Below are positions 6,007 through 11,334 of a stretch of 24,498 nucleotides of DNA, piece by piece. The DNA comes from a virus: positions 1-24,498 of IMG/VR virus record IMGVR_UViG_3300017739_000109; one strand, written 5' to 3'. Within the stretch, counting starts at the first letter, position 1. Every line of letters begins with the position of its first letter. The notes beneath the pieces were generated by a model that did no database searches, was not told the DNA's origin, and saw nothing but the letters and a program-made list of their open reading frames with translations. A program made the translations under genes and the position numbers.

Positions 6007-6134
6007 TGTACCTTGTCCTTCGGGCTGACATGTCGCCTACATTTCTGGCACTCGTCTTTTGCATATCGGACGTTCCAGCATTTCCAGACGTTTCCGCAAA
6101 CGCACTCATACGTAAAATGAAATAAGAGGCTCAT
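6003..6134 (-). CDS. Small zinc-finger protein, 43 aa
   Basis: This short gene is locked into the operon by ATGA overlaps at both ends: its ATG (6132-6134) with the helicase stop, and its TGA (6003-6005) with the next start. It encodes YECVCGNVWKC (residues 9-19) and ECQKCRRHVSP (28-38), giving CxC and CxxC cysteine pairs typical of a single-zinc ribbon. Proteins with this shape are frequent beside phage replication genes, and a role as a nucleic-acid-binding or protein-contact module is likely. It has no recognisable catalytic residues. Confidence 0.8.
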   Translation of the reverse strand: MSLLFHFTYECVCGNVWKCWNVRYAKDECQKCRRHVSPKDKVQ

Positions 6135-7699
6135 ATCAGATAGCTCCTGTTGTCATCTTCGGGGTCTACCAGATACAGATTCTCTTTGGTGCGTGTGACG
6201 CCTACATAGAACACCCGGTGCAGGTCGTCAGGAGCCTGCTCAGCGGCTCGTGCTGCTGCGGGAGATAGATCGGTAAACAGGACGACGTTGTCGGCCTCAC
6301 CGCCCTTGGAGCCGTGAATCGTGGACAGCTCAACGCGAGGCGTTGCATTGAACTTTTCTCCCCGGCGAAGTAGTGCCGTGATGTAGGCACGGTCGGCGCT
6401 AGGCAGCTTGTCCATTGCCTCGTGCCATATGCAGCCCCGGATGTTTTCTTCGATGCGTGGGGTGCCCATGATATGCACCAGTTCCATAAGGCCGTGATGC
6501 GCGATCAGCTCATCGAGTGACACGGTCTCGTCGTCATCGAGTCCGGGTAGTTTTTTGAATCCGCGCTTGACCCGCTCGCCGACAGACATATAACTATACA
6601 CGGCTCGTGCGGCTGCACCGGTTATTCGGTGACCCTTCCTCATTTGCTCCCAGCCGTTAATGGCATCACTCAGTCTCTCGGAAATGGACCTCCGTCCGCG
6701 ATAGCTGTAGAGGATGCCTCGGCTTTTGAGTTCTTGGGTCACGGGTGCTAAGAAGTAACCGGCTTGCGCCAGCACGAGCCACGATCCCTCACTAAAATCC
6801 AAATAGCTTACGTCAGGTACGCGCTCCACGAGCCCCGGGTCCTTACGGGGCAGGTAGGTCTTTGGGACACGGCGGTTGATCCGTTTGGCTACGCGCTCGG
6901 CTAGCGGGTGGACAGAAGCAGGTACGCGGTGCGATTGCTCGAGCACCTCATAGCCGCCGTTGAGGTTGATGAAGTGTTCTACATCTGCACCCGCCCAGCG
7001 GTAGATTGCTTGGTCGTCGTCCCCCGCGCAGTAGATGCGCTCGGAGCTCTGCTCAAGTATGTGGGCTACGTCCCATTGCAACGGCGATAAGTCCTGCGCC
7101 TCGTCGATAAATGTGATGGCAAGACGAGGGCAGAACTCCGCGCCTTCCCGGACGAAGACCTCTAGCATATCCGTGAAGTCGTAAAGCTGAAACCGGTTTT
7201 TGTATTCGGTCAGGCTGTCGGCAATGTACTTGACCCGATTCCAATCCATGCCCATGCCGCTTTCGTCATATTCTTCACGCAGGGTGACCTTGCGAAGGCG
7301 GGCTAGGTTGATAAGGCTGATCACGGGGTTGTCATTCTTGGTCAGGTCAAAGGCGTCGTCTTCACTCATGCCCTGCCCGCCAGCAGTCAGGTCGAACCCG
7401 ATAGCGTGACCCAGTTCCTTATAGTGCTCTGTTTGCATCACCTGTTCTTGACGGATGCCTGACAGGCGCAAAGCGAAGCTGTGCAATGTGCGAAACCATG
7501 GCAGTTGTGTGGGCTCGAGGTGAAAGCGTTTGCAGGCACGTTCAATCGCTTCGTTAGCTGCTTGCCGTGTGAAGGCAAAGTAGCCGATATGAGCGGGATC
7601 TACACCAGAGCTAAGAGCCTCGTCCACTTTGTTAAGCAGCGCGGTAGTCTTACCGGTGCCGGGCGGTCCGTAGATGCGGAATATTTTATTCTTTTCCAT
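6131..7699 (-). CDS. UvrD/Rep-like superfamily 1 DNA helicase, 522 aa
   Basis: The protein has the SF1 helicase motifs in order: Walker A GPPGTGKT (residues 11-18), motif Ia-like GYFAFTRQAANEA, motif II DEAQD (199-203), motif III GDDDQAIYRWAGAD (226-239), motif IV-like QSHRVP, motif V TIHGSKGGEADNVVLF and motif VI YVGVTRTKENLYLV close to the C-terminus. It is shorter than bacterial UvrD (about 720 aa), with reduced accessory domains. It probably unwinds DNA ahead of the polymerase or during recombination-dependent replication. I choose the ATG at 7697-7699, 14 bp inside the upstream gene and preceded by GAGG, because the Walker A follows at once; a TTG seven codons upstream is possible. Its stop overlaps the zinc microprotein start. 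Confidence 0.92.
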   Translation of the reverse strand: MEKNKIFRIYGPPGTGKTTALLNKVDEALSSGVDPAHIGYFAFTRQAANEAIERACKRFHLEPTQLPWFRTLHSFALRLSGIRQEQVMQTEHYKELGHAIGFDLTAGGQGMSEDDAFDLTKNDNPVISLINLARLRKVTLREEYDESGMGMDWNRVKYIADSLTEYKNRFQLYDFTDMLEVFVREGAEFCPRLAITFIDEAQDLSPLQWDVAHILEQSSERIYCAGDDDQAIYRWAGADVEHFINLNGGYEVLEQSHRVPASVHPLAERVAKRINRRVPKTYLPRKDPGLVERVPDVSYLDFSEGSWLVLAQAGYFLAPVTQELKSRGILYSYRGRRSISERLSDAINGWEQMRKGHRITGAAARAVYSYMSVGERVKRGFKKLPGLDDDETVSLDELIAHHGLMELVHIMGTPRIEENIRGCIWHEAMDKLPSADRAYITALLRRGEKFNATPRVELSTIHGSKGGEADNVVLFTDLSPAAARAAEQAPDDLHRVFYVGVTRTKENLYLVDPEDDNRSYLI

Positions 7700-8261
7700 C
7701 GAGGGCCTCGGGGTCAGCAAGGAAGCGATGGATGATTTGAGTGACGCCGCCGTAACTCATATTTAACTCTCGAGCGATCCACTTGACGCTGCGCTGCTCT
7801 TCTCGCCATTGCATGATCTGACGGTACTTAGCGTATCGAGCTTCACGTTTGGATTGTATGACTCCACGCTTTAGACTGGCTTTGCTACGCAAGCCCCCGG
7901 GCATGTCATGCCCCTGTTCCAAGAGCCGCGTTTCGAGTATCGCGATACTGCCCTTGCCGAGGTTAGGTATGTTATCGAGCTCCTTCTTCTCGGCGTACTC
8001 AATGAACTCCTCGAATGTCAGGTCGAACAGGAACTCGTTCTTGAGGCAGTTTCGGATACGTCGAGGCAGGACGAGATGGCACATCTTGCTGGGTTTATCC
8101 GGCAGTGCTTCAATCTCTTGTTCCCAGCGGACGCGCTGTGCGATGTTGACCACAATTTGGCACACACGTTGGCGTGACAAGCCCATTTCATCGGCAATGG
8201 ATTGATATGTGCGAAGCTGCACTACGCGCTGCTCATGGATGTAATCGTTACGGTCTTTCAT
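7686..8261 (-). CDS. HTH / RNA polymerase alpha-CTD-like / HTH regulator, 191 aa
   Basis: Three DNA-binding segments are visible. Residues 16-38 (RTYQSIADEMGLSRQRVCQI) form a helix-turn-helix like sigma region 4. Residues 63-117 resemble the C-terminal domain of the bacterial RNA polymerase alpha subunit: LPRRIRNCLKNE aligns with E. coli residues 262-273 and IPNLGKGS with 292-299. DNA-contact positions R265, N268, C269, N294, G296 and S299 correspond to R68, N71, C72, N100, G102 and S105; K298 is G104. Residues 158-180 (RSVKWIARELNMSYGGVTQI) form a second HTH. The ATG overlaps the primase stop (TGATG). It lies between primase and helicase, so it may control phage promoters or act at an origin; both ideas are inference. 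Confidence 0.75.
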   Translation of the reverse strand: MKDRNDYIHEQRVVQLRTYQSIADEMGLSRQRVCQIVVNIAQRVRWEQEIEALPDKPSKMCHLVLPRRIRNCLKNEFLFDLTFEEFIEYAEKKELDNIPNLGKGSIAILETRLLEQGHDMPGGLRSKASLKRGVIQSKREARYAKYRQIMQWREEQRSVKWIARELNMSYGGVTQIIHRFLADPEALDGKE

Positions 8262-9799
8262 CAGAAAGGTGCTCCTTCACCACTGCCAAAGGATGGCGTT
8301 TTGATATCTACGTCTGCTTCGTCAAAAGCGGACACTTCCCAAACCCGAACAAGTCGTCCTTTAATTCGGAGAGCGCGACTTTGCCCGCCTAAATCCCGCA
8401 GACGTTGCGCTATCTTGTGCGTCTTATACTCAAAAAACTTATTGCGCTTGAGATACGCCTCAAAGTCTTTCAGACGAAACAGGGTGGTGCCGGTTTCTTC
8501 ATCAGTCCACGGGCGCTTGAGCAATATCTCTTCCTTGTCATTGGCCTTTTGCATGTGAGCGCAGAACTCCTCTAAATAATCATAAAACTGGCCGCTTATG
8601 CTGGCGTCTTCGGCTACATCTATGATGGCGCTTTCGTTGTCCCGCATCTCATTCATTAGACCGCCTATGCGGCCCTCCCAAACCTGCTTACTAACAGACC
8701 GAGGCATGAAGTTAAGCTGCTCCATGCAGCACTTTTGAAACGCGGGTTGGCTCATCAGAGCTTCTGTATCCAACTCGACGGGCTCGCCGTTGACATCTAG
8801 AAACCAGACCGGCGGATTTGAGTTGTACTTGCGGAGGTTCGCGATAGCCGCGCCTTGGATAGCGGCACCGATGCCGTGCTTGCGGGTCTGGCACAAATCC
8901 TTATTGCAATGAGCGTTTATTGGAGAGTCGCTACACCGGTAGGCGTAGTCCTTCTTCTCAATCTGCTTGGCAACGATGTTGACCTCGCTGAGCGGCAGCG
9001 GCGGCTCCAGATACTGCAAGTTGTAGGTCAGGATCTCCGATTCCCAGCTATCCGGGTACGCTTTACGCAGATAGACGCCGATGTTGAACAGGCCGTTGTT
9101 GCGGCCACCCTCGGATATCTTGTTCTTGAGCAGGAACTGAAGGCACGGTGGGCCGTCCTTCATGGGTGATACCTCTTCAGGATCGCCTACCTGTAATGCC
9201 ATCAGTTGCTCGGGCGTCTGCTTGTAGCTCTCGTAGAGCTCAAAGAACTCATCGAGAGTGGCGGAGGTGCCGTCGTCCTTGATCGCGTAGCGCAGCCCGT
9301 CCTCGGCGTCGTAGTACGGCAGGTTCAAAAAGTTGCCGACATCGTCGCGGTCAAGGTTGAGCTTAATTTGCTTTGGAAAGATTTCGCTGCCGCCGTACCC
9401 CAGCGCAGCGGAGATTTGTTGCAGCGTAGCCTGCATGTCCTTGGCATCTACCCATTCGGTGGTGAACAGGAAGCAATGCGCTCCACCGGACTTTGACCGG
9501 CAGACGACGAGAGGCAGCTTCAGCTTGCGTATTTTCTCGACAAGTACCTTATGGTCGAGTGGGTACTGATCAACGTCTACACAACCCCAGACACACTTGT
9601 TGTCCTCGTTAATAGGGATGATGCCGATGCCCCGTCCCTTACCGGACAGGTGTCCCTCCCACAGGGCCGTGTTCCGCGGTTCGCGGATGATGGCGGCTCT
9701 ACCAGTGTTCTTACCGTTAGCCTGCTGTTTTTCGATTTTATATGTGCCGTAGGCGAGCTTGAGCCCGTCAAATATAGCTGAGAAAGTATCAACTGACAT
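8261..9799 (-). CDS. Archaeo-eukaryotic primase superfamily protein, 512 aa
   Basis: The N-terminal half carries archaeo-eukaryotic primase (AEP/PrimPol) signatures: motif I CVDVD with D75 and D77, motif II SKSGGAHCF with H108, then GGSEIFPKQ (137-144) and VGNFLNLPYYD (154-164), close to the primase domain first described in TOTE conflict-system proteins. A likely zinc-binding segment YRCSDSPINAHCNKDLCQTR follows at about residue 290. The C-terminal ~170 residues (from MSQPAFQKCCMEQLNFMP) contain no Walker motifs, so the protein is primase-like without its own helicase. It would make primers for the family A polymerase downstream, with the UvrD-like or SNF2-like enzymes supplying unwinding. 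The ATG is preceded by GGGGG. It does not resemble the T7 gp4 TOPRIM type. Confidence 0.85.
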   Translation of the reverse strand: MSVDTFSAIFDGLKLAYGTYKIEKQQANGKNTGRAAIIREPRNTALWEGHLSGKGRGIGIIPINEDNKCVWGCVDVDQYPLDHKVLVEKIRKLKLPLVVCRSKSGGAHCFLFTTEWVDAKDMQATLQQISAALGYGGSEIFPKQIKLNLDRDDVGNFLNLPYYDAEDGLRYAIKDDGTSATLDEFFELYESYKQTPEQLMALQVGDPEEVSPMKDGPPCLQFLLKNKISEGGRNNGLFNIGVYLRKAYPDSWESEILTYNLQYLEPPLPLSEVNIVAKQIEKKDYAYRCSDSPINAHCNKDLCQTRKHGIGAAIQGAAIANLRKYNSNPPVWFLDVNGEPVELDTEALMSQPAFQKCCMEQLNFMPRSVSKQVWEGRIGGLMNEMRDNESAIIDVAEDASISGQFYDYLEEFCAHMQKANDKEEILLKRPWTDEETGTTLFRLKDFEAYLKRNKFFEYKTHKIAQRLRDLGGQSRALRIKGRLVRVWEVSAFDEADVDIKTPSFGSGEGAPF

Positions 9800-11254: not shown

Positions 11255-11293
11255 CGTGATTCCTCTTTCGTGATTAAAGACGCCTATCGGGTC

Positions 11294-11321
11294 TTGACAG
11301 ACATGTATATATGCCTATATT
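11294..11321 (+). promoter_or_regulatory. Sigma70-like promoter for the SNF2 gene
   Basis: A perfect -35 TTGACA (11294-11299), a 16-bp spacer and TATATT (11316-11321) point rightward; the start would lie near 11328, just before the SD and GTG of the helicase gene. Its -10 sits between the -10 and -35 of the leftward promoter. Confidence 0.75.
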
Positions 11322-11334
11322 TTCGCATAGTCAA
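11306..11334 (-). promoter_or_regulatory. Sigma70-like promoter of the replication operon
   Basis: On the minus strand TTGACT (11329-11334), a 17-bp spacer and TATATA (11306-11311) drive leftward transcription of 11254-3861. TTGACTATG and a nearby ATGCGA are shared with the promoter at 2283-2311. The elements interleave with those of the rightward promoter, so both cannot be occupied at once. Confidence 0.7.

Follow-up and report, generated by a model that had tools for sequence, protein, structure and literature searches.

We asked what a small protein that carries an RNA polymerase alpha-CTD-like domain between two HTH segments may do for an aquatic phage. The protein is encoded in the window (the whole 24,498-nt stretch of viral DNA that was analysed, IMG/VR record IMGVR_UViG_3300017739_000109) by a 191-aa gene (Table 1), homologs of which, 80–100% identical, are held by 17 IMG/VR contigs. 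Comparison of the gene with its close homologs gave a dN of ~0.1 and a dS of ~0.6–1.1 (dN/dS ~0.1). The 17 homologous loci and the low dN relative to dS indicate that the ORF is a real gene and that purifying selection acts on it. At TGATG its start shares 1 nt with the stop of the primase gene, and at its other end it overlaps the UvrD helicase gene, the ATG of which is at 7699, by 14 nt; these overlaps on both sides mean that the gene is translationally coupled between primase and helicase. This location had been proposed from the letters alone (the sequence-only reading), and the domain matches of both neighbours supported it. The operon also contains Pam3-like gp33/gp34 upstream, and DUF6378 and a family A DNA polymerase (PolA) downstream. 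When annotated phages were searched directly with the window protein, no match was obtained even at E = 10.

Table 1. Features of the 191-aa protein and its surroundings in the window
Feature	Residues	Coordinates	Strand	Basis or remark
HTH1 + alpha-CTD-like + HTH2 gene		7686..8261	minus	191 aa, ATG start
Sigma-70 region-4-like HTH, HTH1 (4.1-like helix + 4.2-like HTH)	4-50	8112..8252	minus	Pfam, residue table, AF2
RNA polymerase alpha-CTD-like domain	62-118	7908..8078	minus	Pfam, profiles, AF2
Second HTH (HTH2), lineage-specific	146-182	7716..7826	minus	Pfam HTH_28
TOTE-type archaeo-eukaryotic primase, upstream gene		8261..9799	minus	AEP-TOTE 2.9e-11; phrog_21866 7.9e-96
UvrD-type helicase, downstream gene		6131..7699	minus	UvrD-helicase 9.2e-29
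Overlapping face-to-face sigma70-type promoters, candidate target (inferred)		11294..11334	both	11/12 match

Judged by profile and residue matches, HTH1 is a member of the sigma region-4 domain family, in agreement with the sequence-only reading. Pfam Sigma70_r4 (PF04545) matched residues 16–45 with E = 2.5e-8, over the cutoff, and the AF2 model placed helices at residues 4–13, 19–26 and 30–52, a layout in common with sigma-70 region 4. The recognition segment of the window protein is S29-R30-Q31-R32-V33-C34-Q35, and most phage members carry a recognition helix of the form [ST]RERVRQI. With the sigma70 position numbers that we take to match the residues of HTH1, the -35-reading residues were mostly conserved among 27 diverse members (R584 in 26/27, R586 and Q589 in 27/27 each, and at E585 19 E and 8 Q). 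The window lineage differs from sigma70 at E585 (Q31) and R588 (C34), two of the six -35-contact residues, which counts against the function that we propose below. Unlike sigma-70, the phage protein has no regions 2/3; Sigma70_r2 was found neither in the window protein nor in 13 related records (controls positive), indicating that the 191-aa protein is not a sigma factor. A search for a T7-like RNA polymerase gave no match, and the controls gave none either.

The middle domain was weakly matched in the window protein itself, with Pfam RNA_pol_A_CTD (PF03118) at residues 62–106 scoring E = 0.0032, under the curated cutoff. All 14 close homologs matched the same family (best 3.2e-5), and the curated cutoff was passed by distant homologs (L107, 3.5e-9; L038, 2e-9; L121, 9.1e-7) that align with the window protein across HTH1 and the alpha-CTD at 32–40% identity. 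RNAP alpha subunits came out on top when a profile of the close homologs was compared with PDB sequences (E 0.007). In the reverse direction, an alpha-CTD profile made from phage proteins only, and built without L152 and L149, recovered, far above chance, 23/23 RpoA at E<=9e-5 and 22/23 at <=4e-9, the next protein having E = 0.14. Alignment with RpoA by hhalign gave 97.9% and E 5e-13 for the family, and 89.8% and E 1.8e-6 for the window subfamily alone. Furthermore, in 149 Firmicutes genomes, searched with a profile that included L152, nearly all the best ones among the matches listed were RpoA-sized frames. The relatives above the cutoff, the reverse profile and hhalign thus make the alpha-CTD identity firm at the family level in spite of the weak match of the window protein alone, and on this sequence evidence the middle domain is a member of the alpha-CTD family, homologous to that of RNA polymerase. 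The identity proposed by the sequence-only reading was borne out, the significant profile matches being obtained in relatives.

Comparison of an AlphaFold model with the alpha-CTD pointed in the same direction. An AF2 model made from 27 diverse homologs had a pLDDT of 83 with all three domains confident, and among PDB structures Foldseek ranked 8f1i_H, an RNAP alpha subunit, first (probability 0.99, E 0.06), listing also further alpha subunits as well as sigma region 4 and ArdK, which is KorA-like. In a viral structure library, a phage protein named 'RNA polymerase, alpha subunit, C-terminal' was matched with a probability of 1.00, and an earlier AF2 model from close homologs only (pLDDT 59) likewise placed RNAP alpha first in Foldseek. 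The Foldseek E-values were never <0.001, as is expected with a small-domain query, so that we regard the structure as supporting and not as decisive.

Six of the seven main DNA-contact residues of the E. coli domain are present, as had been counted before: R68, N71, C72, N100, G102 and S105 of the window protein correspond to R265, N268, C269, N294, G296 and S299. The seventh, K298, is replaced by G104 and is variable across the 27 members, which counts against the function that we propose below. The others were strongly conserved (R265 in 24/27, N268 in 27/27, C269 in 26/27, N294 in 26/27 and G296 in 27/27, with S or T at the S299 position in 23/27). In E. coli alpha, R265 and N268 contact the minor groove and the backbone (PMC11434276), and R68, N71 and S105 are expected by homology to lie on one face. 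The phage domain shares with the RpoA alpha-CTD the fold, the NCLxxE...PNLGxxS motif and these contact residues; apart from K298, it differs in having no alpha N-terminal (assembly) domain and in being fused behind a sigma4-like HTH. Since only HTH segments flank it, the protein is not an RNAP alpha subunit.

The sequence-only reading had also described a three-part architecture, with a second HTH behind the alpha-CTD-like domain. HTH2 was present in the window protein (Pfam HTH_28 at residues 148–182, E = 1.6e-6, over the cutoff), and the three-part arrangement held in the window subfamily and in some relatives, but it is not the rule. In 80 loci from a primase-based scan, the slot between primase and UvrD was in most cases occupied by a sigma4-like HTH alone (47–72 aa). 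Many loci held HTH+alpha-CTD, either in proteins of 115–139 aa or in more divergent forms (L072, L077, L092, L133 and L138), and the slot was empty in some, as in L091, L096, L098 and L100–L103, where the gene is lost and the helicase directly follows the primase. The divergent forms matched the phage alpha-CTD profile with E 8e-9 to 4e-6 (hhalign 98.4%), L087 being marginal at 0.007. HTH2 is carried by the window subfamily, by L038/L109/L112/L113 and by L132, and is absent from the short forms L025/L026 and L131, from L107, L114 and others. This means that HTH2 is lineage-specific, and that the three-part architecture is one version of a modular family and does not define it. That most relatives manage without an alpha-CTD counts against our best explanation.

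Some further observations were made in the slot. L109 combines an HTH1+alpha-CTD part near-identical to that of L107 (97%) with a second HTH that is L038-like, and from these alignments it looks like a domain-boundary recombination. A second small gene family (~80–95 aa, with the pattern 'MLKADGFDKAFIGV...AYDYDKCIAILCERDGM...AVEYFWFNVLGAWVG..TP') often lies between the primase and the HTH gene and was seen in L036:3309-3560, L034, L037, L038, L019:9518-9775 and others. Two annotated slot proteins proved to be unrelated: the 'RNA polymerase sigma-G factor' of DSL-LC04 is a member of this second (MLKADGF-type) family and has no Pfam match, and the 'DNA-directed RNA polymerase' of MW202510 is a zinc-ribbon protein.

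The two modules were also found together outside the slot. L152:4927-5310, on an otherwise different 28-kb viral contig with SbcCD-like genes and 36% GC, codes for a protein of 127 aa in which a canonical sigma4 (3.8e-13) precedes an alpha-CTD (9e-18), and L149:4806-5207 encodes a viral alpha-CTD protein without an HTH, the N-terminal part of which is unrelated. In bacterial genome contigs no homologs were found with the A5 profile, and the L152 query found only sigma factors there. When the 149 Firmicutes genomes were searched with a fusion profile (including L152), no small sigma4–alpha-CTD fusion was among the matches listed, which were RpoA- or sigma-sized frames. In the literature searched we found no description of a sigma4 + alpha-CTD fusion architecture, and the combination of modules, unusual and recurrent as it is, has apparently gone undescribed.

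What could such a protein do? Our best explanation, to which we would give somewhat less than an even chance, is that it is a phage-encoded, sequence-specific DNA-binding transcription regulator made from the two modules of the RNAP holoenzyme that read the upstream part of promoters. In the holoenzyme, the -35 element is read by sigma region 4, and AT-rich DNA at -40 to -60 by the alpha-CTDs (PMC2988021). By analogy, HTH1 and the alpha-CTD-like domain would bind neighbouring promoter DNA as their polymerase counterparts do: HTH1 would read a -35-like hexamer, the alpha-CTD-like helix-hairpin-helix domain would grip the adjacent AT-rich minor groove via R68/N71/S105, and HTH2 would add a further contact in the window lineage. 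As sigma regions 2–3 and the alpha N-terminal domain are missing, the protein would form no holoenzyme and would act beside the host RNA polymerase. The analysis shows the gene, its domains and their homology, the conserved contact residues and the operon, and from these we infer its DNA target, its partner and the direction of regulation. By occupying or re-marking -35/UP regions, it could repress host-type (early) promoters or recruit the host polymerase to chosen phage promoters, and such a redirection of host RNA polymerase, also suggested in the sequence-only reading, is plausible. Given the translational coupling inside the primase–helicase–polymerase operon, the protein probably also regulates the divergent promoter pair of this operon.

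This pair lies where the replication operon and the SNF2 gene are separated by a gap. The plus-strand promoter (TTGACA-16-TATATT, 11294-11321) is that of the SNF2 gene and the minus-strand promoter (TTGACT-17-TATATA, 11334-11306) that of the replication operon; the two overlap face to face, and their -35 hexamers make up an inverted repeat, the outer length of which is 41 nt in most relatives that have it. All 11 close relatives that were compared conserve the element, and DSL-LC04, whose slot has no HTH gene, lacks it. Across dereplicated loci, the element co-occurred with the HTH gene (26:2 against 5:11; Fisher p 3e-5, with one entry counted as 'none', L073, really having the HTH). Judging from the primase tree, this co-occurrence is phylogenetically confounded and in part reflects shared ancestry, so that it is a weak lead. 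Moreover, the element is kept without an HTH gene in the slot in L034, L039 and L043 and is missing from L138, which has HTH+alpha-CTD, indicating that it does not require the 191-aa protein. Ahead of its -35 at 11294, the plus-strand promoter has GC-rich DNA that is not UP-like, which counts against our best explanation. We treat the pair as a hypothetical binding target suggested by its sequence and not as evidence for the function. As a separate observation within 11278-11334, a conserved hairpin-like GGCACCnTTCGGGCC stretch lies directly downstream of the operon promoter, probably where the transcript of the replication operon begins.

A second candidate target, the AT-rich non-coding region at 416–700 just upstream of terS, had been put forward in the sequence-only reading. 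It holds many GTTAC repeats, and within 460–700 GTTAC/GTAAC was enriched (9 in 300 bp, block shuffles giving a mean of 3.5 and a maximum of 6). The same part also contains a dyad, TGTTACATATTT...AAATATGTAACA, and the arms TCTGTAATC...GATTACAGA. Upstream of terS, GTTAC is clustered in G001, G002, G004, G010, G011 and G164 as well. The slot of G010 and G011 has the HTH only and that of G164 has no HTH, and the cluster therefore does not point to an alpha-CTD protein. We dropped it as a specific target; roles in packaging (pac), as an origin or in the control of terS are equally likely for this region.

Since the gene sits among replication genes, its location would fit a role in replication just as well. 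The protein could be an accessory of the replication origin or primosome that marks the phage origin and helps to load the TOTE primase and the UvrD helicase, the alpha-CTD-like domain simply serving to clamp the minor groove of AT-rich DNA at the origin. In nearly all members the gene keeps its place and is translationally coupled between primase and helicase, which would agree with this, as would the presence of PolA in the same operon and the AT-rich repeat region nearby in the genome. We nevertheless consider it unlikely, as the loci with an empty slot listed above keep primase and helicase without the gene, the GTTAC region adjoins terS and also occurs without an alpha-CTD, and the domains are transcription-type modules.

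No more probable, in our judgement, is that the protein is a KorA/Mor-like regulator, in which HTH1 would be an operator-binding HTH of the plasmid/phage type and the alpha-CTD-like domain a module for protein–protein contact or dimerisation and not a DNA reader. KorA/ArdK and Mor/C regulators have a related type of HTH and gave weak profile matches to the window protein, although they lack an alpha-CTD domain. KORA was matched by 14/14 members (best 2.1e-4, below cutoff) and Mor in relatives (best 1.1e-4), ArdK and KorA were among the Foldseek matches, and phrog_836, a late transcriptional activator, also speaks for this type. For the window protein itself both KORA and Mor stayed below cutoff, KORA reaching 21.0 bits where the cutoff lies at 26.7, which leaves the protein outside the KorA (TrfB) family, and Sigma70_r4 scored far better than either. 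In addition, the residues by which an alpha-CTD contacts DNA rank with the best-conserved positions in the family, and they would be unneeded for pure protein contact.

That the protein is a decoy for the host polymerase, acting primarily on the enzyme (through competition with sigma4 for the beta-flap, or with the alpha-CTD for activators and sigma) and not on DNA, seems very unlikely to us: the HTH does span both a 4.1-like and a 4.2-like segment, with which sigma also contacts the beta-flap, and sigma4 and the alpha-CTD are frequent targets of phages (PMC2988021), but the residues that contact bases and backbone are conserved. Finally, convergence of a generic helix-hairpin-helix on the alpha-CTD, for which the below-cutoff Pfam match of the window protein alone and the weak Foldseek E-values could be cited, is largely refuted and hardly credible, given that relatives score above the cutoff and that searches by profile, reverse profile and structure all put RpoA specifically at the top.

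We return to the proposed promoter-upstream regulator and to how it compares with known systems. Phages modify, block or appropriate sigma4 and the alpha-CTD. In phage T4, AsiA/MotA carry out sigma appropriation, and the likeness, if our hypothesis holds, would be a phage factor that re-marks the -35 region for the host polymerase; unlike the window protein, MotA is not a copy of sigma4 or of the alpha-CTD. Annotated phage proteins with an alpha-CTD include the 'RNA polymerase subunit alpha' of Bacillus phage Goe8 (QDP42789.1), gp26 of Microbacterium phage Mazun and BFVD A0A6J5M7I6. Those of Goe8 and Mazun carry a phage-encoded alpha-CTD over the Pfam cutoff, and they differ from the window protein in having no Pfam sigma4/HTH match and other gene contexts.

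The phage group described here appears to have both modules as copies of its own, fused in one small protein that is found in dozens of environmental viral contigs. If binding to -35/UP DNA is true, the protein would be a minimal, separable reader of the upstream part of promoters, sigma4 + alpha-CTD as a promoter-recognition unit apart from the polymerase would become directly testable, and a tool for blocking or marking host-type promoters would be at hand. A broader reading, which we hold to be doubtful, is that phages have repeatedly built a free-standing sigma4 + alpha-CTD chain that competes with or replaces the host modules at -35/UP DNA. If so, such free-standing copies would be a third route by which phages retarget the host polymerase, the other two being new sigma factors and the appropriation of sigma.
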